IMG/VR virus record: IMGVR_UViG_3300006754_000063
Location: 1-35,177 of that record
Strand: one strand, 5' to 3'
Length of the DNA: 35,177 nucleotides
DNA from: a virus
Position numbers and translations under genes: made by a program
Notes under the pieces: model-generated
Database searches by the model: none
Told to the model about the DNA's origin: nothing
Seen by the model: the letters and a program-made list of their open reading frames with translations, nothing else
Shown: positions 2,705 through 28,937 of the stretch, piece by piece
Numbering within the stretch: position 1 is the first letter of the stretch
Layout: each line of letters opens with the position of its first letter

Positions 2705-2741
2705 CAGTAGCCCTCTTTATATCCTTGTTAAAGTGTTGTTT

Positions 2742-6331: not shown

Positions 6332-9300
6332 TTAGCAATCCGGTGTGCCTTGTGTACATGGAATATTAGCGTCATCGCATGATTTGAATAGGTGCATTGA
6401 TGCATGTTCATCAAATAAATCGTAGCAGTATTTTACTATAGACTCCCCGGACAGCATCACACAATATCCCTTGCCGCAACATGCTCCCCACAATTGACCA
6501 TTTTTGCATTCATCATCTTCATCTGTACATTCATCACAATTATAGCAATAATTTTCATTATTATCACATTGAGATGCAAAAGGAACACCCCCAGCATCAT
6601 AACAATTTTGAGGTGTATCATAATACATGCAAGTATAATTTAAACAACAATTTGCATCATTACCACTACCACAATTATTATCGCATAACGTTAGATTATT
6701 ATAGAATGTACCATTGCTCTCATTGCATTGTTTTTGTGTCATTGCAGAACAATCAGAATTAACACAGCAATAACCCCATACATCGTCGCATGGCGTCGAA
6801 GCACACGGCACACCATCACCGTAATACGAGCCTCCGGCGTTGAAGCACTCAGTCTCGGTCAAAGTCTGACAGGAAGTGCCGACACAGCACGCTCCGTCGG
6901 GGTCTGAATTACACAGAGAGCAATTTTCAACACCAGAGTAGTATGTTCCCTCATGCACCAAAACACATACGTTTTCATTCAATCCAGTATAGCAATCTGT
7001 CTCGGTACAACAAGTAGATGTTATTGGACATGTAACATCACCACATTCTGTCAAATTACCTTGCCATTTACCACCACCCTCTATACATAGAGATGACTCA
7101 TCTAGTTCGACACAATTTCCTTCTGTGCAGCATGCTCCGGTTGTGCATGGTGTTCCCCATGTAACACCATCAGCGTCTATACATGTGCTTCCTTCACCGA
7201 GCCAGGTTGTATTAGAACCAAGATAACCATCATCACACAAATATTCATGTACTATAGCACAATATGTTGGATTATATGGGTTATTTATATAAATTCCAGG
7301 AGTGTAGCAACATGCGCCCAACGGGTAGTCGTACACAGAAGTATCGCAAACACCGTTAGAACATTTAGCACAATCGACTACTGATTTTTTCTCTGCGGTG
7401 GGATCGCCCACACCCCTCCGCGCACACCGCCCGCCGGGTCCAAGCCAAATGCCTCCAATTTCATCTTCACAATACGACCTTGTAAAAAATGAACGGCATG
7501 AACGGCTGGTGACATCATCTGTTTGAGAAACTATTGGCTCGCAATCATCAATACAAGCCCAATCATCTATACCAGGATAAATACCTGAAAGTTCTGAACA
7601 GACTTCTTTGTCTGCGTGAACGCCCAAACCGTTTGATCCACTGTTGCCACAACACCAACCATGTTCCATATAACATTTACCATTTAGACAGCATTCTCCA
7701 AGTGCATAATCTATTGGTTTTGGTTTTCTATATTTTCCAAGACCTATATTATCCATGGGACCACTATGATCTTTTGCTGGGTATATTGCTATAGGTGGAC
7801 CAGCCCAGAACGAAGAATGCAGTATGGTTCTCCAATCACCAACTTCTGCATCATCCCAAAAGCAAAATTCATTAATACTTGTTTCAAGTTTTTCAGGCTG
7901 GAGTATTACATCTTCTGAATTATGTAAAAATGAATTCTCATCAACAAACTGCATACTACCATACGGAATAGAAGGTGTGGCCAAGCCCCCTCCGGCAAAG
8001 TACATAATCTCCCAAGGCAATGAATTATAAAATATTCCTGTCATTTGACAGCAACCAGTACAACCAGCACACGATAAGCAATCTATGTCGTCGGTATTTA
8101 TCATATCCCCATATCGACTACACCTCTGATCAGTGTGTTCCCAATCCTCCCCACCGCCACCATCATAATAACCTATATCTAGCCATGAGGTTCCAAAATG
8201 AGGGTGTAGATCCATGCAAGTTTCAATAGTCATGAGATCACCACAACTACAAGTTCCTCTGGTAGGATCTAACTTAGAATCAATATCATCCCCCTCTTCA
8301 ACCCAACAACATGTACCAAGATCATCAACCAAACAGTCGAAAATAGGTAAATCACATTCAACAGAACCATCACTGCAACATGTAGCATCATTTTCTGATA
8401 TCATATTTCCACTACAAGCGCTCGAAGGAGATGGCGTTTGGTTAACAGGATCACAAGTATCACAGCCCCCACCCGAATTGGCATATGTGTATTCCTCACA
8501 GGAACCATCGGAACAACAATACGTTCCTTTGTGGCAGGGGCTATCATCACATGATAAACCAGCATGCCATATTGCATTATTTGGGTCATTGTTATATACT
8601 AAACATGTCGTTTCGTCATATGGAAAGCACGAAATATCACAAACAGAATCACAATTTCCTCTGGTATGAACACAACAACATCCATCGGAAGAAATATCAC
8701 CACATTCTAAATTGCTTATAATATCTAAAGGAACTTCATTTATAGAAGTAAACCTTGGAGAAAGTGGCACACCATATTTTCCACTATAAAGATAATCATA
8801 TGAGACACAATCATACCAATTATCGGTTTCAATAATTCCATGCGTTGATGTACAACAAACAATTTTATCAAGGTCAGGAGCGGTTGGTGGGTTAAAAATA
8901 CCCATCATAAATTCACAAGCACCTCTTGTGTAGGTATTCGATTCGGGTGTTGTGTTTCTTGTGTTCCAATTAACGTCATTTTCAATACCATCAAAGAAAA
9001 TCAATGGTGATTGTTTATTTATTGTTGATGCCCAGCGTGCATTTGGAGGAAGATAACACTCACCAAATTCAGCACAAGATGTACATTCATAGTTAACAGA
9101 ATATTGAGGGTAATTTTCTGGATGACAGTCCATACAATGGAATATATTATCAGGTTCATTTTGATTTAAGCATATCGATCCCTCTTGATTTGAAGAATCC
9201 GCATACAACAATTGAGGCCATCCATCATATTGTAAAAATGAAGTGTCATATGTTTCGTTGGTTGCTCTGTTGTCCAATAAAATACTGAATGTTTCTGTTA

Positions 9301-12163
9301 TTGGGTTTTCGGGAACTCCAGTTTCCTCTATTTGAACAGCACTATATGTGCAATCATTATCACCGAAAGGACAAGAACAGGGCGTTCCTCCGCCCTTCCA
9401 AGTTTTATATTCTCCTACACATTCTTCTTCTTCTGTTTCCTCACATGTTCCATAATATTCATCACAGCATGCACCTAACGCAAATAGTACTTCACAATCA
9501 ACATCAAAGCATGACCTATTAACATTAAAAATTCCGCCCTGTTCAGAGCAATATGTTCCGCTTGATTCTATGCAATTAAATTCATTCAAACAACAAGCAC
9601 CAAATTCCTCACATCCGCACAACAAATCATTATCACAATCGGAACCGTGTCCCATGAATATACCAGCACATTCGTATTGGGTTGAAATTATACATTCGTA
9701 TTGTTGTATATTCCCCCATAATGTACAACAAGCACCCTCTAGGGGAACATGATCACAACAATCAACAACACCACAAGTGGCACCAGGAATCCACGTTCCA
9801 TCCAAGAGTTGACATTGTAGTTCACTAATACATCCATGGGGCGTTCCATCTTGTAGTGTTGGCTGAACGCAAACATACTCGTCTTCAAGAGAATCTTCTG
9901 TTTCTATATTTACACAACAAGCACCCTGTTCATCACATGGGTCACAACAGAAATCCTCTCCTACTATATCGCAGTCAATACAATTGCTTGTCTCGTCGCC
10001 GGGAATTGGAGCAAACGACCTACAGTCGCAGGGTTCACCACAGGGGCAATCCTGATCAGGTTGGCAGTACCCGCAGCGGCAGCCACAAACATCGCCCGGC
10101 TCGCACCCCCCCGAAGTACACGGGTTCTTATAATCATTGGGATCGTCACAGGCTCCACACGAAACTTGGACATCATTCGAGATATTATCACACGAATATT
10201 CAGGATTGTGCTCGTAACATGTTATGAAGTACCGGTCCATCGAGCCTCCGGTGCACCCTTCCGTCTCATCCGTTACTGCTTTATATTCATACCACTGCAT
10301 GACTTGGTCACAATCACAAATCCCGACACCATCTTGACACACATAGGAATATTTACAACAAAAACCACAACCTAACGATGTATTGCATTCATCGTAGGAT
10401 AAACTACTACACTCTCTGGTGCTATAAAACGAATTACCACCGCCGTCACATATAAATCCCGTTTCTTCGGAGCATGTGTGTTCACAGTCTGTATTTGTTT
10501 TGTCGCAACACGCCCCCACAGAACATTTTTCAAATTCAGAACAGGAAACATTATTTTTAAATGTTCCTCCTAAACTTAAACATTCTCCTCGGGTCATCAA
10601 ATTATCAGAATCATCAGTATCTTTACATGTTATATCACTAGTGGAATTAATATCTAAGCAACAAGAACCAATAGCATTTAAATCACATATGTCTCCGCCG
10701 CATTGTTCCCCAGAATAAAACACACCACCAAGAATATCACAATGGTGTTCATTTGGAACTTCTATACATTCTTGATCTACACAACATATTCCGGGATTTG
10801 TTACATCACACCAACTACAATTTGGACCCCATTCATAATCAAACCAAACACCGGGTCTACTGTCACAATAAAAAGAAGTTACGTCTCCAATACACACACC
10901 ATCGTTTGCGCAGCACAAACCCTTTGTAGGACAAGGGATTTCGGGCCAAAATGTTCCACCAAATTGATAACATTTTGTGTTCAATATGTCATCAAAACAA
11001 TCTCCACCAAGACAACAAATTCCATTTAATATTTCACCATCATCACCAAAACAACTCAAAGAGCAAGGACTTAATAAATTAAATGTTGGATTTAACAATT
11101 CAGAAATACAATAATCATATGTCACATAATCAACACAAGCATCAAAATATTGCTGTGATTGTTCATCATATTCGGTGTAGCAACAAGAACCAATAGAGGC
11201 TTCTATGATTTCACAACTCTCTTTTTCGTGATTTTTAGAAACTAGAACAATTTCCCAATCTTCGTTGGGTTTTCTGGTAAAATGAAGAACATTTAAACCA
11301 CAACCTAACGATGTATTTTCTTCAATTTTAAAATCAGAAGGAGTGTCCCAAATTTCGTTTCCATCTATTAGTGCAGTAAATGATAGATATTCATCACTTC
11401 TAAAATCTCCAGTAACTCCTTGGATACCAATTGGTGTTTGGATTTTTATAATTGAGGTGTTGGTAATGTCTAGGAAAATTCCTTCGCCTCGAACACAAGG
11501 ACCACCTAAACAATCTCCCCCGGTTATACCAGCCCATTGTGTTTTTTCAATTGAATTGATTAATAGTGTATTTAGTGCATACGGGTTTAATGTATTATTA
11601 AATTCAAAATCCATGACTCCACTAGAAGAATCATAATCAAGAAGAGAAGTCATTGCTTCGTCTTGATTGGACGAACCATCAGTCGAAGAAGTTATTATAA
11701 CCTTTTCGTTTTCTAGTGTACCATATGCTGAATTTTGAGCATCATTGTTACCCACAATAATAATAGCATCGTCTTCTTGTAATACTTCAATAGAACCACT
11801 TCCGGTAATGCTCTTAAAATAAAATGTGGTTCCAGAACTTCCAATCAGTGCTTCTTTAAAAATATCAGCACCAGTATTACCCGAAGGGATTTCAAATGTT
11901 ATACCATACGCATCATATATGGAAATGTTTTCTGCTGTCAATCCGGACAGTCCAAAGGTAACACCATTTGACAGTTCTAAAATTAATAAGTTTTCTGTAG
12001 TTTCACCGCCGATAACATAAAAACCAGTAGGCCCAGTGGGTCCAGTGTCCCCAGAAGGACCAAGATAAGGTCCAGTCGGTCCTATAGGTCCAATTGGACC
12101 AGTGGGTCCGGTTGGACCATCAACTGACCTCGCATTGATGCGGCTACTTCCAATATAAACCAT
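6332..12163 (-). CDS. Giant collagen-like, Cys-repeat virion protein (probable adsorption fibre)
   Basis: 1943 aa. Order of parts: leader MVYIGSSRINARSVD; collagen-like Gly-X-Y run (residues 16-47, GPTGPTGPIGPIGPTGP type); a globular module (about 50-150, with GADIFKEALIGSSGTTFYFKSI and IEVLQEDDAIIIVG) related to those in the next two paralogues; a beta-rich stretch (about 150-320) with WEIVLVSKNHEKESC; then about 1600 residues of Cys-rich repeats to the C-terminus. Typical unit: GACC-x(3-10)-C-x(4-8)-C-x(3-5)-GG-x(1-2)-aromatic-x(3-6)-C-x(3-5)-C, with close to 30 CC pairs, e.g. GACCVGTSCQTLTETEC and NCCLNYTCMYY. The segment CEPGDVCGCRCGYCQ is especially Cys-dense. No DUF1566 domain is seen. 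Role inferred as a receptor-binding fibre or whisker in the T4 gene 11/12/wac position. The reading frame is continuous; a TCTAAATA motif lies 26 bases upstream. Confidence 0.88.
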   Translation of the reverse strand: MVYIGSSRINARSVDGPTGPTGPIGPIGPTGPYLGPSGDTGPTGPTGFYVIGGETTENLLILELSNGVTFGLSGLTAENISIYDAYGITFEIPSGNTGADIFKEALIGSSGTTFYFKSITGSGSIEVLQEDDAIIIVGNNDAQNSAYGTLENEKVIITSSTDGSSNQDEAMTSLLDYDSSSGVMDFEFNNTLNPYALNTLLINSIEKTQWAGITGGDCLGGPCVRGEGIFLDITNTSIIKIQTPIGIQGVTGDFRSDEYLSFTALIDGNEIWDTPSDFKIEENTSLGCGLNVLHFTRKPNEDWEIVLVSKNHEKESCEIIEASIGSCCYTEYDEQSQQYFDACVDYVTYDYCISELLNPTFNLLSPCSLSCFGDDGEILNGICCLGGDCFDDILNTKCYQFGGTFWPEIPCPTKGLCCANDGVCIGDVTSFYCDSRPGVWFDYEWGPNCSWCDVTNPGICCVDQECIEVPNEHHCDILGGVFYSGEQCGGDICDLNAIGSCCLDINSTSDITCKDTDDSDNLMTRGECLSLGGTFKNNVSCSEFEKCSVGACCDKTNTDCEHTCSEETGFICDGGGNSFYSTRECSSLSYDECNTSLGCGFCCKYSYVCQDGVGICDCDQVMQWYEYKAVTDETEGCTGGSMDRYFITCYEHNPEYSCDNISNDVQVSCGACDDPNDYKNPCTSGGCEPGDVCGCRCGYCQPDQDCPCGEPCDCRSFAPIPGDETSNCIDCDIVGEDFCCDPCDEQGACCVNIETEDSLEDEYVCVQPTLQDGTPHGCISELQCQLLDGTWIPGATCGVVDCCDHVPLEGACCTLWGNIQQYECIISTQYECAGIFMGHGSDCDNDLLCGCEEFGACCLNEFNCIESSGTYCSEQGGIFNVNRSCFDVDCEVLFALGACCDEYYGTCEETEEEECVGEYKTWKGGGTPCSCPFGDNDCTYSAVQIEETGVPENPITETFSILLDNRATNETYDTSFLQYDGWPQLLYADSSNQEGSICLNQNEPDNIFHCMDCHPENYPQYSVNYECTSCAEFGECYLPPNARWASTINKQSPLIFFDGIENDVNWNTRNTTPESNTYTRGACEFMMGIFNPPTAPDLDKIVCCTSTHGIIETDNWYDCVSYDYLYSGKYGVPLSPRFTSINEVPLDIISNLECGDISSDGCCCVHTRGNCDSVCDISCFPYDETTCLVYNNDPNNAIWHAGLSCDDSPCHKGTYCCSDGSCEEYTYANSGGGCDTCDPVNQTPSPSSACSGNMISENDATCCSDGSVECDLPIFDCLVDDLGTCCWVEEGDDIDSKLDPTRGTCSCGDLMTIETCMDLHPHFGTSWLDIGYYDGGGGEDWEHTDQRCSRYGDMINTDDIDCLSCAGCTGCCQMTGIFYNSLPWEIMYFAGGGLATPSIPYGSMQFVDENSFLHNSEDVILQPEKLETSINEFCFWDDAEVGDWRTILHSSFWAGPPIAIYPAKDHSGPMDNIGLGKYRKPKPIDYALGECCLNGKCYMEHGWCCGNSGSNGLGVHADKEVCSELSGIYPGIDDWACIDDCEPIVSQTDDVTSRSCRSFFTRSYCEDEIGGIWLGPGGRCARRGVGDPTAEKKSVVDCAKCSNGVCDTSVYDYPLGACCYTPGIYINNPYNPTYCAIVHEYLCDDGYLGSNTTWLGEGSTCIDADGVTWGTPCTTGACCTEGNCVELDESSLCIEGGGKWQGNLTECGDVTCPITSTCCTETDCYTGLNENVCVLVHEGTYYSGVENCSLCNSDPDGACCVGTSCQTLTETECFNAGGSYYGDGVPCASTPCDDVWGYCCVNSDCSAMTQKQCNESNGTFYNNLTLCDNNCGSGNDANCCLNYTCMYYDTPQNCYDAGGVPFASQCDNNENYCYNCDECTDEDDECKNGQLWGACCGKGYCVMLSGESIVKYCYDLFDEHASMHLFKSCDDANIPCTQGTPDC
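6781..6905. other. GC-rich repeat module inside the giant fibre gene
   Basis: Hand counts give about 62% (6781-6840) and 58% (6841-6900) G+C against about 35% in ordinary parts of the gene. The island covers one complete canonical repeat, DPDGACCVGTSCQTL through GVPCASTPCDD. Confidence 0.75.
7391..7442. other. GC-rich patch inside the giant fibre gene
   Basis: The 7381-7440 line counts 41 of 60 G+C even with a T-run at its left end. It encodes the IGGIWLGPGGRCARRGVGD segment of a Cys repeat. Flanks are AT-rich. Confidence 0.7.
10010..10270. other. GC-rich, Cys-dense segment inside the giant fibre gene
   Basis: 10021-10080 counts 37 of 60 and 10081-10140 counts 34 of 60 G+C. It encodes the densest Cys block of the window (GDVCGCRCGYCQPDQDCPC and GEPCDCRS), which departs from the GACC unit pattern and looks like a separate inserted module. 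Confidence 0.75.
10362..10384. repeat. 23-bp direct repeat, copy 1
   Basis: 23 bases identical to 11295-11317 in the same orientation and reading frame, encoding NTSLGCG plus a flanking base on each side. The two places are otherwise dissimilar (NTSLGCGFCC here, NTSLGCGLNV there). Confidence 0.85.
11295..11317. repeat. 23-bp direct repeat, copy 2
   Basis: Second copy of the repeat at 10362-10384, lying before the first Cys repeat of the 1943-aa protein (ENTSLGCGLNVLHF). It may mark recombination within the gene. Confidence 0.85.
12023..12118 (-). repeat. Collagen-like Gly-X-Y region of the 1943-aa protein
   Basis: Residues 16-47: Gly at every third position (16-31 and 35-47, one register slip at PYLG), mostly GPT/GPI triplets. 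About ten triplets are enough for a short triple-helical neck and imply a trimer. Confidence 0.9.
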
Positions 12164-12183: not shown

Positions 12184-15100
12184 TTAATTATTTAGACAGC
12201 CTCTCATACCATCATCTATCGAATTGTCGTTTTTCCATGAATTTTCTTTATTATATTGTTTTCTGGAAATACTAATATCTCCCGGATCATAATCGTTTAT
12301 CCATGTATCTGTGTCTGCTGAATATACTAAAACTCTTCTAACTAATCTTAGTGCAGCAACTTCCTCATCACGAAGTGGGGTAATTGTCATACCTTCACAT
12401 AGGCTTTGGGAATCATATCCACAATGATGATGGTTTAGTCCGGGATGGGGATATCCATTAAATATTTGACATGACATCCTGTGGGCATTCCCAGCCTTTC
12501 TTCTTATTTCATCTTTATCTATATTTGAATCGTCGGAGGGCAGCGAATTCCAAATGGAATCAAAATCATTAATGTGATGATAACTTGGACCCATATTTCC
12601 GTCATGTCCCTCAAACGAATCCCAATCCCAATTAAATTTCATATGTGTTGGTCGAACATGACTTCCATTAAACGGATTGACGTACCATCGGTCAGCACTT
12701 GTAGAAGACCAATATGTATCTTCTACTAGAGGTTTATGACCATTACCAATCAGTTGATTATTTAAGTTGGTGTTTTTCGTAGCCCAATAAACATAATTTA
12801 GTTCTGTGAGACTTGGGATATACCAATCCGAATAATTAGTTTGATAATCAAACCGTTCTCCGTCGTTCATTACTCCCGTGTTGTTAATGTTTGAGACATT
12901 CCACAAACAGGAATTGTTTTGGTTAATCGTTTCCCAATATTCCTGATACGATTCTTTAAATTGTTCTGAAGAATTATTAATATCTGTTGAAGAAACGGAG
13001 TCAGGCCAAAATGAAGCATTCCATCTTTCATAATCTTTACCATCTCCAAAGAACCATAAATTTTCTTTATATGATGTGTCATCAAACATTCTTGTATTTA
13101 ATAAACCATCATATTCCGTTGTTTCAATTATATCACCAACAAACGAACCATCTTCATTTATATTAGCATTCTGCATTGTCCCCCAGTTTAACATATAATT
13201 GATATCAGAATCAATTTTATTGGGGTTTACGATATCAACGGGAGATAACACTAGAGCCCAGCGGCGATGTAGTTTATCCTTTCCGTAAATTTTATTTGCA
13301 AAGTGCGTATAATGAGGATTATGTGGATGGATCGGGTTGTTTCTTGTTCCTTCAGTCCAACCATATAGAGACATTAAAGAAGGATATATCTGTTCACCCT
13401 TTGAATTTATATCCCATTTGTTATGTGTATTACAATATGAACTGTATGGAGTTTCAACATAGAAATCTTGATAATAACCTTCACCGGGCGATACGTTATA
13501 TCCATATGGACAACCATAAAGATATGGATAGTAAACATTATACAAGAATTGATTATCGCCCGAAGGAGTAGCACAACGGGAATCAAAATCTGGTTTAAAA
13601 GAACAAATATCATAATCTTCAGAATAAAGATTTGAAACATGATCAGAATTAGTTAGTGTGTATGAATATACTACATCAGGGGCAATGTGATTTTCATACG
13701 GATTCCAACCATAATTAATATCTTTATTTTGTTCTTCTGGGGTCTTGCTGTAAAGGTCGGAGTAGTTTTTATAATTTTTACCATTAGACAATTTTGGACC
13801 GGGGTTATCAGAATTGATGTCTAAAGATTCCCACTCCATTCCGGGGAGATATTTGATGGTATCTCTAGAATGTTTTTCGATTTGTTTTTTAATTTGACCT
13901 TTAGCAAGAGGATATCGATGGTCACCCAACACATCTCCATAATCACAAGTATCGTCATGACCAACATAACCGATAAAATAACCACCCAATTCTTCGTAGT
14001 ATTTGCCCGGCACATACTGAACAGTTTTCTCTTGTCTTTCGTTTGTTAAACAAGGATTGCAATTTGGAGTTTCTGAGGAGAATGGATTCGATGACCTACT
14101 ACCACCACTTCCGCCTGAATATTGTGAGCAGGGAGAACCAATACAAGTTGGTAATTGAGAATTAAAAATACCACCTTGCACAAAACATTCATTCTCCGTT
14201 ACATGAACACAGGTATAATTTTCTCCTTCTGAATCAGGAACACAGCATGCTCTTTTTTGGGTATCTCCTGGGAAGGAGCAGCATTCAACACATCCCGCAT
14301 CCATATAGTCTGGTGTGCAGCATAAAGTATTGAAACCATAAAATGCCCCACCCGTCTCTGAGCACATCGGCGGAGACATTTGCATGCATCTTTTTATTCC
14401 TTCTGGTGTTGTGGGGCAATTTCCTTCATCATCACAAGGAGGAACTTCGTTGTGACAACAAGCACCTGTTTGAAGTCCACCAAAACAGCAAAGGGCATCA
14501 TTGCAAATCATATCATACCACACACCACCAACACCAATACAAATTTCTTGTGTAAAGTTAAAGCAACTTCCTTCGATACAACAAGCATTATTTTCTGTAC
14601 TACATGGATCAGGACATTCGAATGTACCACACGGAACTGATGCAAATGATCCCTTCAGAGTGTCACAGTTATTTTTTGTTGTTGGGTAACAACGTCCCCA
14701 CAAACAACAACTACCACTCGAAACACAATCCGGTCCTTCTGGTCTATTATAACAAGAATTTAAATCAAAAACACCACCAACAGAATCACAATATGCATCA
14801 GTTACATAATCAAGACAGAGATGGTCTATAGTTTCTTCGTTATCATCATCAGTACATAAACAACAAGAACCAAAATTATAAGAATATGGTGTTAGAAATG
14901 GATCTGTTATTTTTTCAGTCTTCTTGAAGTAATATACTTCTTCACTTCCACCAGAAACTCCTAAATTAATACCATATGTGTTACCGTTGTCTCCATAATG
15001 TGAAAATGGTATAGATCTAAATTTTTCGGTGTCTGTAAAGTCATTTGTGATTTCATGAGAATTTGTTGGTGGTACTGCGGGATCAGAAATGATATTTCCG

Positions 15101-15663
15101 CTTGAACTGTCTTCTCTAAATTCTCCTGCTAAATGATATAAATTTCCGTATGTGAAACCAGAACCCAAATGATCAAATTTAGTATATTCGTCTGTTCCCT
15201 GAGCACTGTTCCCACTGTTCATATACAAGAAATTGTTTGCAGTATTACCAATTATACCATATGTGTATTCATTACCATGAATAACAATAGTGTCTGTGGA
15301 CGAATCGATTGTTAAATCACCAGAAGAATATATTCCCCGAAAATATGCAGTTGAACCAGATGTTCCTTGAATTACAATTCCATATGTGCTTCCTTCTTTA
15401 GTACTTAAAACTTCGATAAGGGCATCATTTGGATCTCCGGTTAATCCCCGAAATCCAGTAGTTCCAATGGTTGTTCCATCTGTCAATTCAAAGATAACTT
15501 TATCGTTACCTTCACTAGTAGCACCAATAATACCAATACCCCTTGGTCCCACTGAACCCGTTGTACCAGTATAACCTGTGGCTCCGACAAGACCAGCAGG
15601 ACCAGTGTTTCCGGTTGGTCCCATTGCTCCTATGGTTGGTATTGTACTACTTCCGTTTATCAT
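12184..15663 (-). CDS. Collagen-like fibre protein with Cys repeats and C-terminal DUF1566/Lcl-type domain
   Basis: 1159 aa. Leader MINGSSTIPTI; Gly-X-Y run (residues 12-44); globular module (about 45-130, VIFELTDGTTIGTTG, GSTAYFRGIYSSGDLTIDSSTDTIVIHG) related to the flanking paralogues; about eight Cys units (SCCLWGRC, NACCIEGSC, GACCHNEVPPC, RACCVPDSEGENYTC) from about residue 265 to 520; a Tyr/Asn-rich middle region; and from about residue 946 a DUF1566-like domain with DWYIPSLTELNYVYWATK, TYWSSTSADRW and AALRLVRRVLVY. In Legionella collagen-like protein a domain of this family follows the collagen repeats and binds glycosaminoglycans, so receptor binding is a reasonable inference. The start overlaps the preceding stop as TAATG. 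Probable trimeric adsorption fibre. Confidence 0.88.
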   Translation of the reverse strand: MINGSSTIPTIGAMGPTGNTGPAGLVGATGYTGTTGSVGPRGIGIIGATSEGNDKVIFELTDGTTIGTTGFRGLTGDPNDALIEVLSTKEGSTYGIVIQGTSGSTAYFRGIYSSGDLTIDSSTDTIVIHGNEYTYGIIGNTANNFLYMNSGNSAQGTDEYTKFDHLGSGFTYGNLYHLAGEFREDSSSGNIISDPAVPPTNSHEITNDFTDTEKFRSIPFSHYGDNGNTYGINLGVSGGSEEVYYFKKTEKITDPFLTPYSYNFGSCCLCTDDDNEETIDHLCLDYVTDAYCDSVGGVFDLNSCYNRPEGPDCVSSGSCCLWGRCYPTTKNNCDTLKGSFASVPCGTFECPDPCSTENNACCIEGSCFNFTQEICIGVGGVWYDMICNDALCCFGGLQTGACCHNEVPPCDDEGNCPTTPEGIKRCMQMSPPMCSETGGAFYGFNTLCCTPDYMDAGCVECCSFPGDTQKRACCVPDSEGENYTCVHVTENECFVQGGIFNSQLPTCIGSPCSQYSGGSGGSRSSNPFSSETPNCNPCLTNERQEKTVQYVPGKYYEELGGYFIGYVGHDDTCDYGDVLGDHRYPLAKGQIKKQIEKHSRDTIKYLPGMEWESLDINSDNPGPKLSNGKNYKNYSDLYSKTPEEQNKDINYGWNPYENHIAPDVVYSYTLTNSDHVSNLYSEDYDICSFKPDFDSRCATPSGDNQFLYNVYYPYLYGCPYGYNVSPGEGYYQDFYVETPYSSYCNTHNKWDINSKGEQIYPSLMSLYGWTEGTRNNPIHPHNPHYTHFANKIYGKDKLHRRWALVLSPVDIVNPNKIDSDINYMLNWGTMQNANINEDGSFVGDIIETTEYDGLLNTRMFDDTSYKENLWFFGDGKDYERWNASFWPDSVSSTDINNSSEQFKESYQEYWETINQNNSCLWNVSNINNTGVMNDGERFDYQTNYSDWYIPSLTELNYVYWATKNTNLNNQLIGNGHKPLVEDTYWSSTSADRWYVNPFNGSHVRPTHMKFNWDWDSFEGHDGNMGPSYHHINDFDSIWNSLPSDDSNIDKDEIRRKAGNAHRMSCQIFNGYPHPGLNHHHCGYDSQSLCEGMTITPLRDEEVAALRLVRRVLVYSADTDTWINDYDPGDISISRKQYNKENSWKNDNSIDDGMRGCLNN
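12189..12196 (-). promoter_or_regulatory. Possible late promoter, TCTAAATA
   Basis: The minus strand reads TCTAAATA, 7 of 8 to the T4 late motif and containing CTAAATA, a variant I recall from T4-like cyanophages. It overlaps the stop region of the 1159-aa gene and lies about 26 bases before ATG 12163. Confidence 0.5.
14090..14875 (-). repeat. Cys-rich repeat block of the 1159-aa fibre
   Basis: About eight xCC units (SCCLCTDD through ACCVPDSEGENYTC...SPCSQ), the same unit as in the 1943-aa protein, including the GGVW/GGAF/GGIF turn. Ends in a Gly/Ser linker (SGGSGGSRSS). Confidence 0.85.
15532..15630 (-). repeat. Collagen-like Gly-X-Y region of the 1159-aa protein
   Basis: Residues 12-44, 11 consecutive Gly-X-Y triplets (GAMGPTGNTGPAGLVGATG type), with fewer Pro than in the sister genes. 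Confidence 0.88.
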
Positions 15664-18635
15664 TATTGATTAATCTCTTTGTTTTTGTCCTTCAATAGAG
15701 GAGGAATATTCCATAAAGTATTCCCATCGCCAGTTGCTCCATAATATCTAGTATCACAACGAATCAAACGAATGGGTCTAACCTTACAGGTTTCTTCTGT
15801 TCTTTTCTTTTTCTTGGTTATGAAATTGTTTGAAATTCCGTTTAGATCAAAATTCATACTCCAAGCAACGCTTCCGGCGACCATATCGTTTTCATTTGTG
15901 AACAAACCCTCATGGGGAAGTGTTGGGAACACATTTGTTAATATGTTTATATTATTTTCATCAAAAGAACCGGTCGATGACCAATGATAACCCCCCAAAG
16001 GAATACCATCATTTTTCATTAGTTCTATATTTAAGTTAAATCCGTGTGGATTATCATCATCCAATAAGCAATGTGCTGCTAAGAATGAAAGTTCATCATA
16101 ACTGGGGATATACCACCCTGAAACATTTTCTGGGTTTCCTGTTATTCCTTGTGAGTCAGATGTTAAACCATCATCTAATAGACGAGTGGCCCGAATTGCA
16201 GAGATATAATCTGAAGTTAATCCAGGACCAAAATCGGATGAGGAATATGAATACTCTCCTGTATATCCTTCATGGAGAATATTATCTGCTGAAACCATTC
16301 GAATTGAATTATAAAGACCCCAGTTTCTGTGCCACATACCATTTGCATTTTGGAGAGGTCGAGTTAGTAATTTTTCATATGGGTATTCACCGTTAGCGTG
16401 TGCTTTTTTCTTACTCGTAAAGGTATTAGAAACCACATCTTCCAACGAGAGGTGTCCTTGTTTATAATTGTACCAAAATCCCTCTTTATAATTTAAGAAT
16501 CTTTTATGATAATCAAGCGAAATATCATCATATTCACCATATTGGTTATATAATGGTCCCCAAGAACTTCCGTTGTTGTTCCAATAGAATTCTGTAGTAG
16601 CACCCGAAGATTCTGGGTATGTCACAACTTCACGGTCTCCCGTTATTGCAATAGGTTCCATCGAAACAATCATTAGATATGAATCTGGATTTGTTATGGT
16701 TTCCTGAGAGTATTCTGATTGGTCCAACGAGAATCCATAACCGTGATAATCGTGTTTATTAACATACAAACCACCACTGACCCCATTGCTCCCATTAAGG
16801 AGTGATCTATAATCGGTGTTTCTTCCACCAAACGCAGTGGCACCAAAACACATACTTTGACCGGGTTTAAACATTCCAACCACCATACCACCAGCATACA
16901 GATCGCCAGTCTGTAATGGTATTCCATCAACCAAAAACGAACATTCTTCTCGGCTTAAATTACCTTTGACGGAGGGACAACTAATATAATCACACGAAGA
17001 TCCAGCACCCGCAAACAAACCACCACCTTTCATGCAGTCTGTATATGAATAATTATCATAACAAATTTTATCTATACAACAACCTCCTGTTCCAGAAGAA
17101 CAGGGGGTTTCCTTGTTGCTCGTGTCCCACTTATAAAGGCCATAATCGTTGCTTTGACAAGGAGTGCCGGTTTCTCCAAAAAAGAATCCATGATCCATGC
17201 AAGTTTCTAATATTCCATTGACACAGTGTCCCAGACCATCACAACAATATCCCATTTTAATCTCGGTGAATTTACAATCCGTGTCTGTGCATTTAACCCC
17301 ATCGCCGTTATACACAGCAACATATTCATCCAACAAATCAAAATTTATACATTCGTTTGCTGTAATATTATCATAGCAAATGAATTTTTCTTGAGAACCA
17401 ACTTTTCGTATACAACAGGCTCCTCGACCATAGCAAATGTTTCCAGTATTTCCACTATTTCCTGTATATCCACATGTAGTTCCGGAACCATAAAAATACC
17501 CATCGCATAATGATTGTTCGATATGAATACAATCATCAATTCCTTGGCAGCATGCTCCAGTACTACCTAAATTACTAGCATTTGCCGAGACTGGTTTACA
17601 AGAGAATAAAGAATCTTCGTCGAATTCCCCGTTTCTATAAACGGGTATCCCATACCAAATGTTATTTTTTGAAAAGAAGTTTGTAATATCAATCCCACCA
17701 CTAAAACAAGGTTCCTTTTCAAACGGGAATATAACATTTTGACTAAATCCAACTTGAGACGATCCACTAACACCATCAGTAACCAACATAAATGTATTGG
17801 TTTGGGTCCGGAGATGTTCAGGAGGCGATTGTATATCAAAGAAACACGCTGCATACTTATCAGAAGCAGAAATGCCCCAACTCACAGAATTATCTAAGCC
17901 ACGAATATCAAAATATACATTATGATGATTTTTAATTTCTGATGGAAACAATTCTACATTTAATGCAGTCAACCCATCTATTGAATTTTCTCTGTCTTCA
18001 ACATAATAACCTTCTTCGTTTGTTGGATTCTTAGTTGTTCTTTCTTTATGGGAAAAATATTCTGCAAAATTTTTATTAACAAGAGTTAATGGTGTTCTTG
18101 TGTTTTCTTCTGATGGATTATATCTTGTTCGAGGAATTCCCGTAATTATTCCAGAAGAATTAACACCAATTATATTTCCAGTTTCTCCGCCCCCCGTTAC
18201 ATTAACATAACCAAAGGTTCCCCTATCGAAAATAATTTCAATCCCTTCTTCGTTTGTGTGGAGAGAGACATCACCCGATGAACCAAGTACCCTTAGTGTT
18301 AACGAATTTGTATCGACACTCTCTTTAAATAATGTAGCCCCGGCAACACCAGAAACATTTTCCCCAGCAACAAACAATTTAACTTCATTGTTGGGAGGAC
18401 CAACAATTTCATTATTGGTGGTCACACCAAAAGTAGTACCATCAGCATTTATGAATGTTGTTAATACTCTTTGGTTAGAATCTAAAGTTATTCCAACAAT
18501 TGAAGGACCGGTGGAACCAGTGGATCCAATATCAAATCCCATTATCCCTCCAGGACCAGTTGGTCCTGTTGGCCCTGTTGGTCCTGTTCGGCCTTTTTCT
18601 ATGTGGTAATAACTACTTCCATGGAATATAGGCAT
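15663..18635 (-). CDS. Collagen-like fibre protein with short Cys block and C-terminal DUF1566/Lcl-type domain
   Basis: 990 aa from ATG 18635 (MPIFHGSSYYHIEKGR). A TTG four codons upstream is possible, but the ATG start aligns the leader with MVYIGSS and MINGSS of its paralogues and leaves a 4-base gap after the previous stop. Collagen-like run at residues 15-44; globular module (about 45-155, LTTFINADGTTFGV, GATLFKESV, GSSGDVSLHTNEEGIEIIF); four to five Cys units (ACCQGIDDC, ACCIRKVGSQEKFIC, YCCDGLGHC, CCIDKICYDN) between about 360 and 555; a middle domain with many Tyr and Gly; and a DUF1566-like C-terminus from about residue 840 (GWYIPSYDELSFLAAH, GYHWSSTGSF, VAWSMNFDLNG, VRPIRLIRC). Probable trimeric adsorption fibre, first of three paralogues. 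Confidence 0.88.
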   Translation of the reverse strand: MPIFHGSSYYHIEKGRTGPTGPTGPTGPGGIMGFDIGSTGSTGPSIVGITLDSNQRVLTTFINADGTTFGVTTNNEIVGPPNNEVKLFVAGENVSGVAGATLFKESVDTNSLTLRVLGSSGDVSLHTNEEGIEIIFDRGTFGYVNVTGGGETGNIIGVNSSGIITGIPRTRYNPSEENTRTPLTLVNKNFAEYFSHKERTTKNPTNEEGYYVEDRENSIDGLTALNVELFPSEIKNHHNVYFDIRGLDNSVSWGISASDKYAACFFDIQSPPEHLRTQTNTFMLVTDGVSGSSQVGFSQNVIFPFEKEPCFSGGIDITNFFSKNNIWYGIPVYRNGEFDEDSLFSCKPVSANASNLGSTGACCQGIDDCIHIEQSLCDGYFYGSGTTCGYTGNSGNTGNICYGRGACCIRKVGSQEKFICYDNITANECINFDLLDEYVAVYNGDGVKCTDTDCKFTEIKMGYCCDGLGHCVNGILETCMDHGFFFGETGTPCQSNDYGLYKWDTSNKETPCSSGTGGCCIDKICYDNYSYTDCMKGGGLFAGAGSSCDYISCPSVKGNLSREECSFLVDGIPLQTGDLYAGGMVVGMFKPGQSMCFGATAFGGRNTDYRSLLNGSNGVSGGLYVNKHDYHGYGFSLDQSEYSQETITNPDSYLMIVSMEPIAITGDREVVTYPESSGATTEFYWNNNGSSWGPLYNQYGEYDDISLDYHKRFLNYKEGFWYNYKQGHLSLEDVVSNTFTSKKKAHANGEYPYEKLLTRPLQNANGMWHRNWGLYNSIRMVSADNILHEGYTGEYSYSSSDFGPGLTSDYISAIRATRLLDDGLTSDSQGITGNPENVSGWYIPSYDELSFLAAHCLLDDDNPHGFNLNIELMKNDGIPLGGYHWSSTGSFDENNINILTNVFPTLPHEGLFTNENDMVAGSVAWSMNFDLNGISNNFITKKKKRTEETCKVRPIRLIRCDTRYYGATGDGNTLWNIPPLLKDKNKEINQ
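16975..17560 (-). repeat. Cys-rich repeat block of the 990-aa fibre
   Basis: Four to five xCC units ending at GGGLFAGAGSSCDYISCPS. Same unit as in the 1943- and 1159-aa proteins, but the shortest of the three blocks. Confidence 0.82.
18504..18593 (-). repeat. Collagen-like Gly-X-Y region of the 990-aa protein
   Basis: Residues 15-44: Gly at 15, 18, 21, 24, 27, 30, 33, then 37, 40, 43 (one register slip), with GPT triplets and GST triplets. Confidence 0.9.
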
Positions 18636-18639
18636 AACA

Positions 18640-19875
18640 TTATCCAATCACTCTTGAATTTAAAAGAGCAACGTCATCTTTCAAGTTACTAATTTCAAGA
18701 GCAATATCGTCGATTGTTGGTGTTGTAGCAGAGGTATTTGTTGTTGATGCTGTTAAGATGTCTCTAACTTCTAATTCTTCTACAGAAACTTTACTAGGTA
18801 CATAGACTGCTTGTGTTGTCTTGATTCGTAGGAGGGGAACCATCTGAATGGATGTTGGAGAACCAAAAACATCAATTATACTATCGCTTGTTGATTTATA
18901 TTGGGGTGTGAAAAATTTGGTCATTCCGTTTGATTTTGCTTTAGATGTTGATTTATGAATTGTAATAAAAGAATTTGAACTGCTGAAATTGTCCTCAGTT
19001 GATTTCTTTTTAATTTCATATTTGTTATTAACCAAATCAACATTTTCAATTGTTCCTTGTGTTTTAGAAGTTCCTGTTCCTTGTGATATGTTTTTACTTT
19101 TGTGTGACAAATTAGCATTATATTCCGAAGTAAGTTCGACTTCTTCAATATAACCATATTTTGGTTTACCCGAAGAGTCTTTATATACAGAATATAACGA
19201 TTGATAAGTTGTAGTAGAAAGTTCATGAGAACTTCTTGCATCCACCCATGTGTCATTTTTAGAAGTAATTTCTTCAACCAGATCCGTTGGGACATAAATT
19301 AAACTTCCCACTGGAGGACTAGATAAGTCTTCTCCTGCTACCGCTCCGCCAACTTCATAACCGATATAATTTAAAACTACACCGTTATAGTCATCAATAC
19401 TAGTCCTGGAAAGGAGAGGCTTTGTAATCCATGTTTGGGTTGTTGGTGCAAGATTTTCTAGTTCGCCAGCAGTTATACCACTAAGGAAAAATACATCATT
19501 CCCGCCACCAAGCCCCCCAGTATTACCGTCCGCATCAGGCACATAATTAAATTGTTCTGAAGGATACACAATAAGTCCCGAAATAACCACGTTGGCATAA
19601 TTTATGTCGTCATCGACAGTTTCGATTATTCCAAAAACTTCAGAAGTCGCAGGAGAATCGGCTCTAGCCTTGGCAAATTTGTTTTCACTGACACTTCCGC
19701 TACGAACATCATAAAAGATAACATCACCACCCGTTACTCCGCCCAATGAAGAATCAAAACCACCAGAAAATCCACTCTCATTAATGGTAACAAACAACCG
19801 AGATCCCGAATTGATTTGTAAATCACGAACTAAGAGATTGGGGGTTATATTTGATGTGTTTGAACAACTATTCAT
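18640..19875 (-). CDS. Virion structural protein sharing a module with the adjacent tail fibre
   Basis: 411 aa, family not recognised. N-terminus MNSCSNTSNITPNLLVRDLQI. Residues about 50-177 form a module with FAKARADSPATSEVFGIIETV, VVISGLIVYPSEQ, DVFFLSGITAGEL, TQTWITKPLLSR and NGVVLNYIGYEVGG. The same order of motifs (ARA...A.GI...G, GxxFF, GYVSKPMM, GFVVQYRGVYL) is found in the 749-aa fibre. The middle is Ser/Thr/Lys-rich, and the C-terminal ~35 residues (TPTIDDIALEISNLKDDVALL) should form a short coiled coil, suggesting oligomerisation. GAGGAA precedes ATG 19875. Located between the tail fibre and the collagen-like fibres, it may be a connector or attachment protein; that is inference. 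Confidence 0.78.
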   Translation of the reverse strand: MNSCSNTSNITPNLLVRDLQINSGSRLFVTINESGFSGGFDSSLGGVTGGDVIFYDVRSGSVSENKFAKARADSPATSEVFGIIETVDDDINYANVVISGLIVYPSEQFNYVPDADGNTGGLGGGNDVFFLSGITAGELENLAPTTQTWITKPLLSRTSIDDYNGVVLNYIGYEVGGAVAGEDLSSPPVGSLIYVPTDLVEEITSKNDTWVDARSSHELSTTTYQSLYSVYKDSSGKPKYGYIEEVELTSEYNANLSHKSKNISQGTGTSKTQGTIENVDLVNNKYEIKKKSTEDNFSSSNSFITIHKSTSKAKSNGMTKFFTPQYKSTSDSIIDVFGSPTSIQMVPLLRIKTTQAVYVPSKVSVEELEVRDILTASTTNTSATTPTIDDIALEISNLKDDVALLNSRVIG

Positions 19876-19885: not shown

Positions 19886-22135
19886 TCATAGGTTATCATT
19901 AAGATCAGCATCTGCAACGTAGTGGATTGAAATGTTATCTAAAAGAACGGCTCCGTTAACAACTGCAATTCTAGCACCCTTCTTGTTAACAGTATTTTCA
20001 ATACTATTAAGACCAACGGGGCTGACTCTAATTCTTTCATTAAATCCCTTAGAACCAGAAGTTAATCTAACGTCTTGACATGCGGTTCTATTAAAACCAT
20101 CTCCTGTCTGACCACTCTTTGGAGAGAACACAAGGAACGTTGGATCTTCTCTCATTTCTATAGGGAATCTGTGATAATAATCACCTGATTGTGTTATGGG
20201 GAAATCTATTACAGTATAGTCAGGCAGACACTCTGTTACCATAGTTTCCGACATATTCTGTTGATCTAATGAATAGGTTCTTTGATAATACCTACTACAT
20301 TTTTGCAGTTCATCGTGGAGATTTGTTGGCTCGAACGGAGTGGCAGAATAACCATATTCTATTTTTACCTGTGCTAAATCAATAACATTTTCATTGTTCG
20401 AAATATCAAACCCCAAAGCAACATAATGTGAATCACCACTTGGTGCTTTTGCAATTTCGGGTGCTTGGAACACTAAAGTATGCTTTGACCAGTTATTTGA
20501 TAATATAACACTGTCGTCTAAGGTATTTACTGTATAGTCGCTATTACCATCGTAATTTTGAGTCCATACAATTCCCAGCGTCGAACCAGAAACATCTGCT
20601 TTACCATAGAAAGATAATGTTAAATCATCATTCCTAATGGAAGTGACATCTTCTATTCTGTTTTCAATATAAACTTTATCGGAAGCAGTAGATCCTTCGA
20701 TTATATGTTGTGTTTGGACATAATAAGTCGGGTTTCCTTCGACTTCTGTTTGATTTGAAGCAAAGGACATTCTTTGGATACTAGCAGTTATTCCGGCTCC
20801 GCTGGTGACACCATCATTACGAACCCAACGGTCAGCAAAATATGTGCTTTCGGTTCCGGCATATTGAGATATTCCTATTCCTCTTTGCCAAACATCAAAC
20901 CCGCCGTTTATTAGGAGATTGTGGCCCCCACCGCCTCCACCACTAACGCCATTTGGGGATAGACTTTTAAATAGTGTTGACATTTCTCCGGGACGAGGAG
21001 CACCATCAGCCACCTGATTTAATATAACACCTACCTTTTCGCCGCCATTGTCCCAGACGTTAGCAAACGGTTTTGCTAGGTCTCCGGGTCGGTCGGATAC
21101 TAGTTCGCCATCCGACCCCAAGAACAAAAGACCTGTTTTAGTTGACGGGAAGGGATTTATATATCCGGTAACTGCTACTTCAATTATTTGACTTGTTAAT
21201 TGGCTTATAACAACACCAACTGCATCATGAGCAGTTTCAACCACACCGCCATCATCACTCGAACACCAGAACCAGTCATTATATGCACTTCTTCCATGTG
21301 TGTCGCCAGTAAAATCAATGCCTGGTTTATAGCCAACAATCTTACCGTTTGAAAATCCATGTCCACCGACCCCCAAATCAACCGGTGTACTGAGGTAATT
21401 ATATGCTGATGCAGAAGATCCACTAGATCCTGAGAGATATACACCCCTATATTGAACCACAAATCCGGCATCTGCACTCAAACCAACCATCATAGGTTTG
21501 GAAACATATCCCTCGATTGCGGGTTCTTCGGGAGTCATCATTCCCGCATCATTTCCGTCCACAAAGAAAATACAACCGGCACTAATTCCGCCCGTGGTGA
21601 CTATTGAGGAAAGATCATCGCCCTGTACTCGTCCGAACGGAGTTATTTGTAGATAATCGGTTGTTATTTCCGAAACAAGACCAATGGCTTCCGCATTGGT
21701 TTTTGTGTTTGCTCGGGATTTAAAAACGTATAAATTATCATAGCCAGAAGAAGATCCCATCCCGATAGGATTACCAAAAGAAAATCCAGCATGGGTCCAG
21801 CCGCTTGGTCCGGGAAAACTTCCGGATGCAGTAGAGCCATAAATTCGATAATTCATCGAAGATGTTTGACTATTTCCCATATCATAATCAAGAATGCCAT
21901 CAATCTTGACATTATCTAAAAATGTTATTCCGTTGGGCACTTCGTTGTTTAGCGAAAATGTGGCATCTCCAGAGGCATCAATAGACACATTAATACCATC
22001 CCCGGAAAGACCATCATAGACTCGAAGACGATTTAATTTTTCAATTATTTCATCGTTTTCTTTGGTTATCCAATCATAAAATGTATCCGCAGCAGCCAAT
22101 GGATTTATTTGGTAATCGTTATTTTCTACGCCCAT
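19886..22135 (-). CDS. Tail fibre-like protein (gp10-position / fibre) with NLLINGGFDVWQRG module
   Basis: 749 aa. N-terminus (about 10-40) DTFYDWITKENDEIIEKLNRLRVYDG is the virion-attachment pattern seen in structural proteins of T4-like marine phages. Two copies of the ARA...GI...G module follow (about 128-237 and 245-375; copy 2 has AHDAVGVVISQL, GLLFLGSDGEL and GGEKVGVIL). After a Gly-rich hinge (SGGGGGGHN, about 398-406) comes NLLINGGFDVWQRG...YFADRW, a beta-sandwich module common in phage tail fibres, ending with VKIEYGYSATPFEP and CSRYYQRTY (about 590-621), then a C-terminal tip. Likely host-surface binding. It has its own late promoter (TATAAATA) and AAGAGGAA ribosome site. Confidence 0.85.
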   Translation of the reverse strand: MGVENNDYQINPLAAADTFYDWITKENDEIIEKLNRLRVYDGLSGDGINVSIDASGDATFSLNNEVPNGITFLDNVKIDGILDYDMGNSQTSSMNYRIYGSTASGSFPGPSGWTHAGFSFGNPIGMGSSSGYDNLYVFKSRANTKTNAEAIGLVSEITTDYLQITPFGRVQGDDLSSIVTTGGISAGCIFFVDGNDAGMMTPEEPAIEGYVSKPMMVGLSADAGFVVQYRGVYLSGSSGSSASAYNYLSTPVDLGVGGHGFSNGKIVGYKPGIDFTGDTHGRSAYNDWFWCSSDDGGVVETAHDAVGVVISQLTSQIIEVAVTGYINPFPSTKTGLLFLGSDGELVSDRPGDLAKPFANVWDNGGEKVGVILNQVADGAPRPGEMSTLFKSLSPNGVSGGGGGGHNLLINGGFDVWQRGIGISQYAGTESTYFADRWVRNDGVTSGAGITASIQRMSFASNQTEVEGNPTYYVQTQHIIEGSTASDKVYIENRIEDVTSIRNDDLTLSFYGKADVSGSTLGIVWTQNYDGNSDYTVNTLDDSVILSNNWSKHTLVFQAPEIAKAPSGDSHYVALGFDISNNENVIDLAQVKIEYGYSATPFEPTNLHDELQKCSRYYQRTYSLDQQNMSETMVTECLPDYTVIDFPITQSGDYYHRFPIEMREDPTFLVFSPKSGQTGDGFNRTACQDVRLTSGSKGFNERIRVSPVGLNSIENTVNKKGARIAVVNGAVLLDNISIHYVADADLNDNL

Positions 22136-22158
22136 TTAGATTCCTCTTAATACTGTTA

Positions 22159-22166
22159 TATTTATA
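22159..22166 (-). promoter_or_regulatory. T4-type late promoter, TATAAATA
   Basis: Exact match to the T4 late consensus on the minus strand, in the 37-base gap between the 267-aa gene and the tail-fibre gene, 24 bases before ATG 22135. Implies a gp55-type late sigma factor with gp33/gp45-type co-activators elsewhere in the genome. Confidence 0.75.
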
Positions 22167-22172
22167 ATACCA

Positions 22173-22976
22173 TCACCACTTGTTTATTAATAAATTATTC
22201 ATATATCGAATTTCAGACCTATAACCAGAAAGAACTTTTATTATTGGACTAACTGTAGTGCCGCCCACCGCTCCATTATCTAAACTAGTTATACTTATTT
22301 TAATTCTATCGGCGGTGGCTGATGTTATACTGCTACCTTGTTCGGTTTGGTCTTCTAGTGTTTCGTCAATAGACGAATTTACATGAGAAACATTAACCGC
22401 AAATCCGACATAATATTCCCCACCAGTTTTTGGTAATCCGCCTTTAGTTATATCGTCATTTAAATGCATCCAAACTTTCAAACCTTTAAACCGGCCAAGT
22501 GGCGATTCTACCAAATACCAACCCTTTCTGCAAGTAACACTTATGCTGTTGGTTCCAATAACAACACTAACTAAATTAGTATTTGCATTTGAAGTTAGAG
22601 ATGGGTTATTAAATGGATAGAGAGGAGTAGTACCAGACCACCCAGGACCATGAACAACTAAACCGGTTCCATCATCTTGACCAATTCCAATTGTATCCTC
22701 GTGTATTAGACCATCAGATCCCCCATTATAATCACTATCCCACAACAGACCAGGACCACCCAACCAGTTATGTTGCATTTGGGTTGTTAGGGATGACATT
22801 CGATAAAAATGATCTTGAATTTCATTTACTTCAGCAGCCTGTAGTGGTTGTCCCGGCTTAAACGCAACCATCACATAATTATTAGCATTGCCAGTATTTT
22901 CATGTAAATTAACACGACTAAAATACGGTGATTGATCTAAGTAAAATGTATCAGGTCCAAATGGTTCGAATGACAT
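22173..22976 (-). CDS. Virion structural protein with FKPGQPLQAAEVNEIQ motif
   Basis: 267 aa, function not established. The N-terminal part (about 1-70) includes YVMVAFKPGQPLQAAEVNEIQDHF, a motif class (FxPGxxLQAxEhNxxQ) that recurs at the N-terminus of baseplate- or fibre-linked structural proteins of marine myophages. The rest is beta-rich (LVSVVIGTNSISVTCRKGWYL, YYVGFAVNVSHVNSS, SPIIKVLSGYRSEIRYMNNLLI). Size and position after gp8 match T4 gp9 (288 aa, the fibre-socket protein), but I see no direct sequence support for that identity. TAGGAG precedes ATG 22976. Confidence 0.78.
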   Translation of the reverse strand: MSFEPFGPDTFYLDQSPYFSRVNLHENTGNANNYVMVAFKPGQPLQAAEVNEIQDHFYRMSSLTTQMQHNWLGGPGLLWDSDYNGGSDGLIHEDTIGIGQDDGTGLVVHGPGWSGTTPLYPFNNPSLTSNANTNLVSVVIGTNSISVTCRKGWYLVESPLGRFKGLKVWMHLNDDITKGGLPKTGGEYYVGFAVNVSHVNSSIDETLEDQTEQGSSITSATADRIKISITSLDNGAVGGTTVSPIIKVLSGYRSEIRYMNNLLINKW

Positions 22977-22987
22977 AGTCTAAACTC

Positions 22988-24784: not shown

Positions 24785-24785
24785 T

Positions 24786-25874: not shown

Positions 25875-25875
25875 T

Positions 25876-27639: not shown

Positions 27640-28044
27640 TTATCTTACTCTCTCTATTGAAAGGACTAATGAATCTTGAACTGGTTCTTTTGGGTTGCCT
27701 ATAATATACTTAAAAATAATTTCAAAACTTAAAATGTGTTGGTCGATAAGTGAATCGTCAATACGAACTTTTTGTAACAATACTCTAGGTTCAAATATCT
27801 CTAATTGGTCCCTAATTTCACTATTTAAAGAATAGTGAGATCCTTGATCATATAATTCGAATAATATATCAGCGAGGTTGGACCCCATTCGAGATTTAAA
27901 TGGTCGTTCTTGCTTATGGGTTAATATGATATTCTTAATAGATTGTTTTATCGAATTTTCATTTGTTTTAATGTTAACATCATCACTAAAACTATTTTTA
28001 GAGAACGAAAAATCAACATCGGAATATTTTATTTTTTCAGGCAT
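27640..28044 (-). CDS. 25: Baseplate wedge protein, gp25-like (GPW/gp25 family)
   Basis: 134 aa, nearly the same as T4 gp25 (132 aa). gp25 joins the wedge core next to gp6 and gp53 and links to the first sheath ring. Signature: NSIKQSIKNIILTHKQERPFKSRMGSNLADILFELYD (about 30-66), with the conserved TxxGERPF-like turn here as THKQERPF, then RDQLEIFEPRVLLQKVRID and a C-terminal strand FEIIFKYIIGNPKEP. A TATAAATA late promoter lies 18 bases upstream and an AAAAAGG ribosome site follows it. First gene of the tightly coupled gp25-gp6-gp7-gp8 group. Confidence 0.96.
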   Translation of the reverse strand: MPEKIKYSDVDFSFSKNSFSDDVNIKTNENSIKQSIKNIILTHKQERPFKSRMGSNLADILFELYDQGSHYSLNSEIRDQLEIFEPRVLLQKVRIDDSLIDQHILSFEIIFKYIIGNPKEPVQDSLVLSIERVR

Positions 28045-28062
28045 GTAAAAACCTTTTTAGAA

Positions 28063-28070
28063 TATTTATA
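28063..28070 (-). promoter_or_regulatory. T4-type late promoter, TATAAATA
   Basis: Exact late-promoter consensus on the minus strand, inside the 29-base gap between the 281-aa gene and gp25, 18 bases before ATG 28044. It would drive the wedge operon gp25-gp6-gp7-gp8. Confidence 0.78.
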
Positions 28071-28073
28071 AGA

Positions 28074-28919: not shown

Positions 28920-28937
28920 TGTAAATCCTTTATTCTA

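Follow-up and report, generated by a model that had tools for sequence, protein, structure and literature searches.

Paired DUF1566/Lcl-like tips are predicted on Cys-repeat proteins in the tail module of a T4-like virus

Two neighbouring genes in a viral record of 35,177 bases (the window, meaning the whole stretch of DNA analysed) probably encode a pair of virion adhesins, P0002 and P0001, which would serve a T4-like phage as short-fibre or whisker-like proteins and attach to a host-surface ligand; we put the probability of this reading at about 0.6. Both proteins open with a short collagen-like run, continue through a region of Cys repeats and end in a C-terminal domain, here called the tip, which is predicted to share the fold of DUF1566 (Pfam PF07603, Lcl_C) and of the C-terminal domain of the Legionella adhesin Lcl. 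The minus strand of the window carries a T4-like tail module with the following features:

1964..3671, minus strand: T4-like neck protein and gp15 tail sheath stabiliser, downstream
6332..12163, minus strand: P0003 (type C), 1943 aa with 196 Cys; collagen-like N-terminus and Cys repeats in common with P0001 and P0002
12184..15663, minus strand: P0001 (type B), 1159 aa; short collagen-like run, Cys repeats and a DUF1566-like tip with long insertions
12187..13323, minus strand: P0001 tip, residues 781-1159; AlphaFold2 model aligning with 4eps and 8q4e
12658..12936, minus strand: PF07603 Lcl_C match in P0001, 21.6 bits, sub-threshold (34.9)
15532..15630, minus strand: P0001 collagen-like run of 11 Gxx triplets, residues 12-44
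15663..18647, minus strand: P0002 (type A), 994 or 990 aa; short collagen-like run, Cys repeats and a DUF1566-like tip
15666..16967, minus strand: P0002 tip, residues 561-994; AlphaFold2 model aligning with 8q4e and 4eps
18531..18593, minus strand: P0002 collagen-like run of 7 Gxx triplets, residues 19-39
18640..19875, minus strand: 411-aa protein, upstream of type A
19886..34643, minus strand: T4-like fibre (phrog_4492) and baseplate genes (gp6-like, gp25, gp53 and others), upstream of P0002

The length of P0002 depends on its start, a TTG at 18647 giving 994 aa and an ATG four codons on (18635) giving 990. Both tip genes are sited between T4-like baseplate and neck genes, the location expected of a T4-like tail adhesin, and comparison of gp15 gives Pelagibacter phage Mosig (47.5%) and cyanophages as the closest isolates. 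The window further contains short tandem repeats (19-24 bases) at 34676-34713, where an exact 19-mer stands in two copies, and at 4574-4715.

The prediction that places both tips in the DUF1566/Lcl_C fold group, which is C-type-lectin-like, is a strong one that draws on structure models and profiles together. AlphaFold2 models of the tips as monomers reached a pLDDT of 76.1 and a pTM of 0.79 for P0001, and 81.0 and 0.90 for P0002. Foldseek alone gave neither tip a PDB match at E<=0.001, and VIA-align was then run on Foldseek's top chains, 26 for the P0001 tip and 239 for the P0002 tip. For P0001 this placed 4eps first, at Z 8.4 over 163 aligned residues (rmsd 4.0), and 8q4e, the solved C-terminal domain of Lcl, second (111 of 131 residues, rmsd 3.9) at Z 7.9, where a Z under 8 may reflect just a common arrangement; the next row, langerin, stood at 3.4. 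The same order was obtained for P0002, with 4eps at Z 11.1 (residues 563-962, 203 aligned, rmsd 4.0) and 8q4e at Z 8.7 (residues 570-962, 123 of 131, rmsd 2.9), followed by C-type-lectin-like proteins at Z <=4.8. The assignment is strong because these two structures, which a bacterial DUF1566 profile also finds, head both lists, with lectin-like domains next. Against the BFVD, the two best Foldseek matches of the P0002 tip (E 0.004 and 0.016) were both proteins of uncultured phages, the second of them named 'Collagen triple helix repeat' (probability 0.96). The classical sugar motifs of C-type lectins are EPN, QPD, EPD and WND, and none of the four is present in either tip.

Motifs had first pointed to this domain, the preliminary description having read WYIPS...EL, YWSST-type and VR.(I/V)R motifs in both proteins. 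The first two hold for both, as WYIPSLTEL at 947 and YWSST at 984 in P0001 and as WYIPSYDEL at 845 and HWSST at 888 in P0002, while the third is found in P0002 (VRPIR at 956) but not strictly in P0001, which has ALRLVRR near 1106. Written as a degenerate DNA pattern, the motif pair matched once in the window versus 0/100 shuffles. By predicted fold and profile the tips are divergent relatives of PF07603 that fall below curated membership. Its curated cut-off is 34.9 bits, and Lcl_C scored 21.6 bits against P0001 in a six-frame search (E 5.6e-6 for one genome), 20.9 bits against a P0001 fragment (E 4.6e-4) and 15.0 bits against a P0002 fragment (E 0.03), so we do not file them as curated members. 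Full-length hmmscan of P0001 and P0002 listed neither for Lcl_C, and longer P0001 tip fragments likewise had no Lcl_C match. PHROGs matches were mostly to the collagen-like stretches, and phrog_4245, a family of unknown function, matched P0001 at 920-999 (E 0.005; E 4.3e-6 for one genome). Searches of PDB sequences with phmmer, using the full proteins and the P0001 tip, returned nothing useful.

Since Pfam was suggestive but sub-threshold on the window proteins, relatives were gathered by a motif scan of viral contigs, which yielded at least 119 stretches. Tips that scored at least 85 bits against those of the window were retained, giving at least 36 of type A and at least 52 of type B, or at least 28 and at least 39 after removal of near-duplicates. 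In the type A alignment (A2, 26 rows) the window row replaces the identical L079, and two further rows are omitted, L082 being an identical but cut sequence and L092 a divergent one; in the type B alignment (A1, 39 rows) the window row replaces the identical L015 and L064 is shortened; the bacterial DUF1566 set (A3) uses 44 of 75 references. Among the matches listed, Lcl_C was detected at E<=0.01 in 38/39 type B and 14/26 type A alignment rows; the window's own two rows miss this level at the alignment's fragment length, and shorter fragments of them match. The cut-off of 34.9 bits was reached by 3/20 records of relatives.

Profile comparison carried the assignment further. With hhalign, type A matched the bacterial DUF1566 set at 98.4% over 74 columns and type B at 97.8% over 48 columns; all 44 domains of that set match Lcl_C, and its profile retrieves 8q4e at E 9e-16. 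This comparison, equivalent to the check proposed in the preliminary description, could have returned no DUF1566 or Lcl match, or another fold; together with the structural matches it bears out the claim that the tips are DUF1566/Lcl-like. The profiles of the two tips matched one another at 98.3%, so the tips are homologous, yet they form two separately conserved groups, and the earlier view that there are two distinct tips holds as well. Because viral and bacterial members had been picked by motif, 14 motif columns were then masked. The match fell to 65.9% (E 5.7e-5) for type A and to 6.4% (E 0.006) for type B, versus 0.0-0.3% in column-shuffle controls, and the sequence evidence therefore leans on the motif used to choose most members. 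A further 16 members (14 of type A and 2 of type B), which came from synteny or from their overall similarity and not from the motif list, carry the tip as well. Searched against PDB sequences, the type B profile retrieved 4eps (E 0.0011) and 8q4e (E 0.031) among penicillin-binding proteins at similar E, and the type A profile retrieved neither structure.

The relatives form a large family of proteins of about 1,000 aa, built, among the matches listed, from an N-terminal Gxx run (in 56/64 long members), Cys repeats and a tip. The family splits into P0002-like (type A) and P0001-like (type B) members, each separately conserved, and the genes recur in one order: fibre, 411-aa protein, A, B, C, a 4604-like gene, a 3688-like gene, neck and gp15. 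Among the matches listed, A precedes B in 42/42 viral loci with both, B precedes C in 56/56 and the 411-aa gene precedes A in 26/26 with both. A T4 Gp23 capsid gene was found in five of the seven longer records searched. Types were assigned by best BLAST hit of the whole protein, tip included, so the presence of a tip in 52/52 type A genes, among the matches listed, is partly circular. Of type B genes, 12/68 among the matches listed have no tip, seven being cut by the locus end and five being complete by manual reading of coordinates: L097, L106 and L118 (370-371 aa), L023 (Cys repeats, no Pfam family) and L063. The last, at 10875-14051 (plus strand) in type B position, has a sub-threshold VWA match (PF00092, E 7e-4) in place of the DUF1566 tip, and the five together therefore speak for a modular C-terminus. 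The tips themselves carry large lineage-specific insertions. In some relatives a third gene with a DUF1566 tip, but no collagen run, lies between the P0003-like and 4604-like genes; examples are L252 4357-6960 (minus strand, 868 aa) and L253 5684-8245 (plus strand, 854 aa), with 40 Cys each.

The N-terminal part is common to P0001, P0002 and P0003 and opens with the collagen-like run, and all three proteins carry Cys repeats of the CC..C....C....C kind. The runs of P0001 and P0002 are genuine though short: residue shuffles reached the 11 triplets of P0001 in 0/20,000 trials and the 7 of P0002 in 6/20,000, and PF01391 (collagen) scored a sub-threshold 16.5 and 11.7 bits (cut-off 27.2). No DUF1566 match was found in P0003, and no Pfam family apart from a sub-threshold collagen match. 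Its Cys content of 10% (196/1943), in many CC..C....C..GG repeats, is out of the ordinary for a protein that assembles in the cytoplasm. All 11 differences between the window and the near-identical L007 over 16 kb fall at 10053-10174, 9 of them within 15 bases, and change five residues of P0003, marking a local variable spot.

How such proteins would work can be proposed in outline. Each would form a homotrimer started by its short collagen-like run, with the shared N-terminal part anchoring it near the baseplate or neck and the Cys-repeat region as a stalk, and the DUF1566-type domains at the C-terminus would bind a host-surface ligand, probably a glycan. The two tips descend from a common ancestor and are kept as two separate conserved lines, and they therefore probably read different, non-redundant ligands. 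Binding on the host surface is favoured because the tips are modular, separately conserved and sited among tail genes. The top matches to 4eps and 8q4e, the unmasked profiles, the baseplate-to-neck position, the fixed order, the modular C-terminus and the BFVD match named for collagen all count for the adhesin reading, whereas the Foldseek null, the masked profiles, the purifying selection on the tips and the absent sugar motifs count against it.

Conservation is the ground on which this reading meets its main rival. Receptor-binding tips often diversify. Full-length conservation was assessed on relatives hand-picked from 56, 18 of them of type A and 28 of type B. The Lcl_C core is the best conserved part of type A, at 49.1% mean pairwise identity versus 24-27% for residues 49-355; in type B the mean identity is 36.5% for the core, 37.9% for the upstream tip and 40.7% for the Cys region, and 21-24% for residues 49-262. 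Between P0002 and its closest relative among the matches listed, L006, dN/dS was 0.099 for the tip, 0.069 for the core and 0.163 for the Cys region, and contigs near-identical to the window differ from it at 11-22 positions, all within P0003 and none in the tips. Tips that rank among the better conserved parts of their proteins, with a dN/dS as low as 0.07-0.10 in P0002 and with variation confined to P0003, would suit a domain with a chiefly structural role, one that caps the C-terminus of the trimer, keeping the fibre in register and perhaps nucleating the collagen-like run, and that leaves receptor contact to other gene products, for instance the phrog_4492 fibre or P0003. Such conservation makes the cap the main rival, but we consider it unlikely on balance, as a general cap would need no two separately conserved versions, should not be missing from five complete genes of type B and would hardly call for large lineage-specific insertions.

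The adhesin reading leaves the nature of the ligand to be weighed, and here the preliminary description had gone further, suggesting that the tips bind sulfated polysaccharides as Lcl does. Lcl binds sulfated glycosaminoglycans through a basic upper surface (R342, K369, K380, K385, K391). The whole tips of the phage proteins are acidic, with net charges of -24 (P0001) and -18 (P0002) and pI values of 4.9 and 5.0, and a positive net charge was found in 5/39 type B and 0/26 type A tips of relatives. At the two positions that could be aligned safely, by manual mapping, R342 and K369 correspond to L952 and A990 in P0001 and to Y850 and S894 in P0002. Because the tips are acidic and these equivalents are non-basic, Lcl-type binding of sulfated glycans is not supported. 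The broader version, in which a basic face grips sulfated or other anionic host polysaccharide, shares the predicted fold of the Lcl C-terminal domain and could appeal to a KKKKR cluster of P0002 near the strand region that holds K391 in Lcl; against the overall charge and the lost basic residues we judge it very improbable. A local basic patch may exist on the phage tips, and putative glycan binding as such is plausible.

Attachment of virions to non-host matter (particles, mucilage or algal polysaccharide), which would raise the encounter rate, is a reading to which we give scant weight: tips conserved over many contigs would suit a common environmental ligand, but paired, positionally fixed genes beside baseplate genes suit host contact equally. 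The tips look stable rather than diversified by a retroelement, since they are conserved, show low dN/dS in P0002 and are invariant in near-identical contigs, and since RVT_1 was found in 0/30 of the viral records carrying tip genes (up to 157 kb, all possibly fragments); hence, even though DUF1566 is reported to be the commonest Pfam domain among the targets of diversity-generating retroelements (DGRs) and to be so used by Bacteroides phages (PMC6642488, PMC8143477), a DGR acting on them from outside the fragment is the least probable of the readings. In the window, repeats at least 40 bases long fall into two families, one of collagen type and one with three copies of 40 nt.

Extending the adhesin reading beyond the window, we tentatively suggest, as a possibility rather than an expectation, that widespread uncultured T4-like viruses carry a fixed, retroelement-free adhesin set, in which one stem, opened by a short collagen-like run as trimer starter, bears two (in some relatives three) separately conserved, lectin-like DUF1566 tips that would read different, slowly evolving host ligands simultaneously, the Cys repeats maybe being cross-linked or metal-bound outside the cell.

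Among known systems, Lcl is one of the closest. The preliminary description had called the arrangement Lcl-like, and what stands of this is the likeness of the predicted tip fold, the W.[IL]P..EL and YWSS core and the collagen-like run carried on one polypeptide with the tip. The label fits only loosely because the phage run has 7-11 triplets at the extreme N-terminus and is separated from the tip by more than 500 residues that include the Cys-repeat region, whereas the elongated collagen region of Lcl runs into its C-terminal domain (PMC11162425). The phage tips also differ from Lcl in being acidic, in their large insertions and in scoring below the curated cut-offs of Pfam and NCBIfam, the NF046116 model (adhesin_Lcl) giving 17.3 bits against P0001 versus a cut-off of 500 and no match to P0002. 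The C-terminal domain of Lcl is trimeric, and the phage tips were modelled here as monomers. Bacterial ORFs selected by motif rarely combine these parts, with at least 5 successive Gxx triplets in 4/113 and Cys repeats in 0/113. Collagen runs of greater length, 18 to 42 triplets, do stand before a DUF1566 motif in the viral L042, L094 and L116 and the bacterial L144 and L184, which come nearer to the true Lcl architecture than P0001 and P0002. The top structural match of both tips, 4eps, is the Bacteroides ovatus fimbrial protein BACOVA_04982, a bacterial fimbrial protein rather than a phage gene product, and the comparison covers the tip-like part of its chain.

DUF1566 tips and collagen repeats are each already known from phages. 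The Bacuni phages of Bacteroides uniformis likewise have DUF1566 proteins of the C-type-lectin fold group (PMC8143477); theirs are DGR targets, whereas the tips described here are conserved rather than diversified and come from records in which reverse transcriptase was found in 0/30. The Kyanoviridae (pelagimyophages and cyanomyophages) offer the closest genomic parallel, since their host recognition cluster or structural operon, for which collagen repeats and major-tropism-determinant domains are reported (PMC7029224), occupies the same baseplate-to-neck interval. They differ in that Lcl_C was detected in 0/8 of the isolate or single-cell records checked, and P0001, P0002 and P0003 had no tblastn match in 50,697 phage records, a collection in which no isolate of this virus group was found; tblastn likewise found no phage record for the 411-aa protein or a type A relative. 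A paired, stable Cys-repeat form of DUF1566 in T4-like viruses was not found described in the open-licence PMC literature searched. In the published work drawn on here phage DUF1566 tips are hypervariable DGR targets, and here two conserved, positionally fixed tips are met instead; the same fold, conserved and fixed in many uncultured T4-like viruses, may therefore be a general, stable receptor-binding module, for which residues 781-1159 of P0001 and 561-994 of P0002 are the candidate domains with which to search for host ligands.
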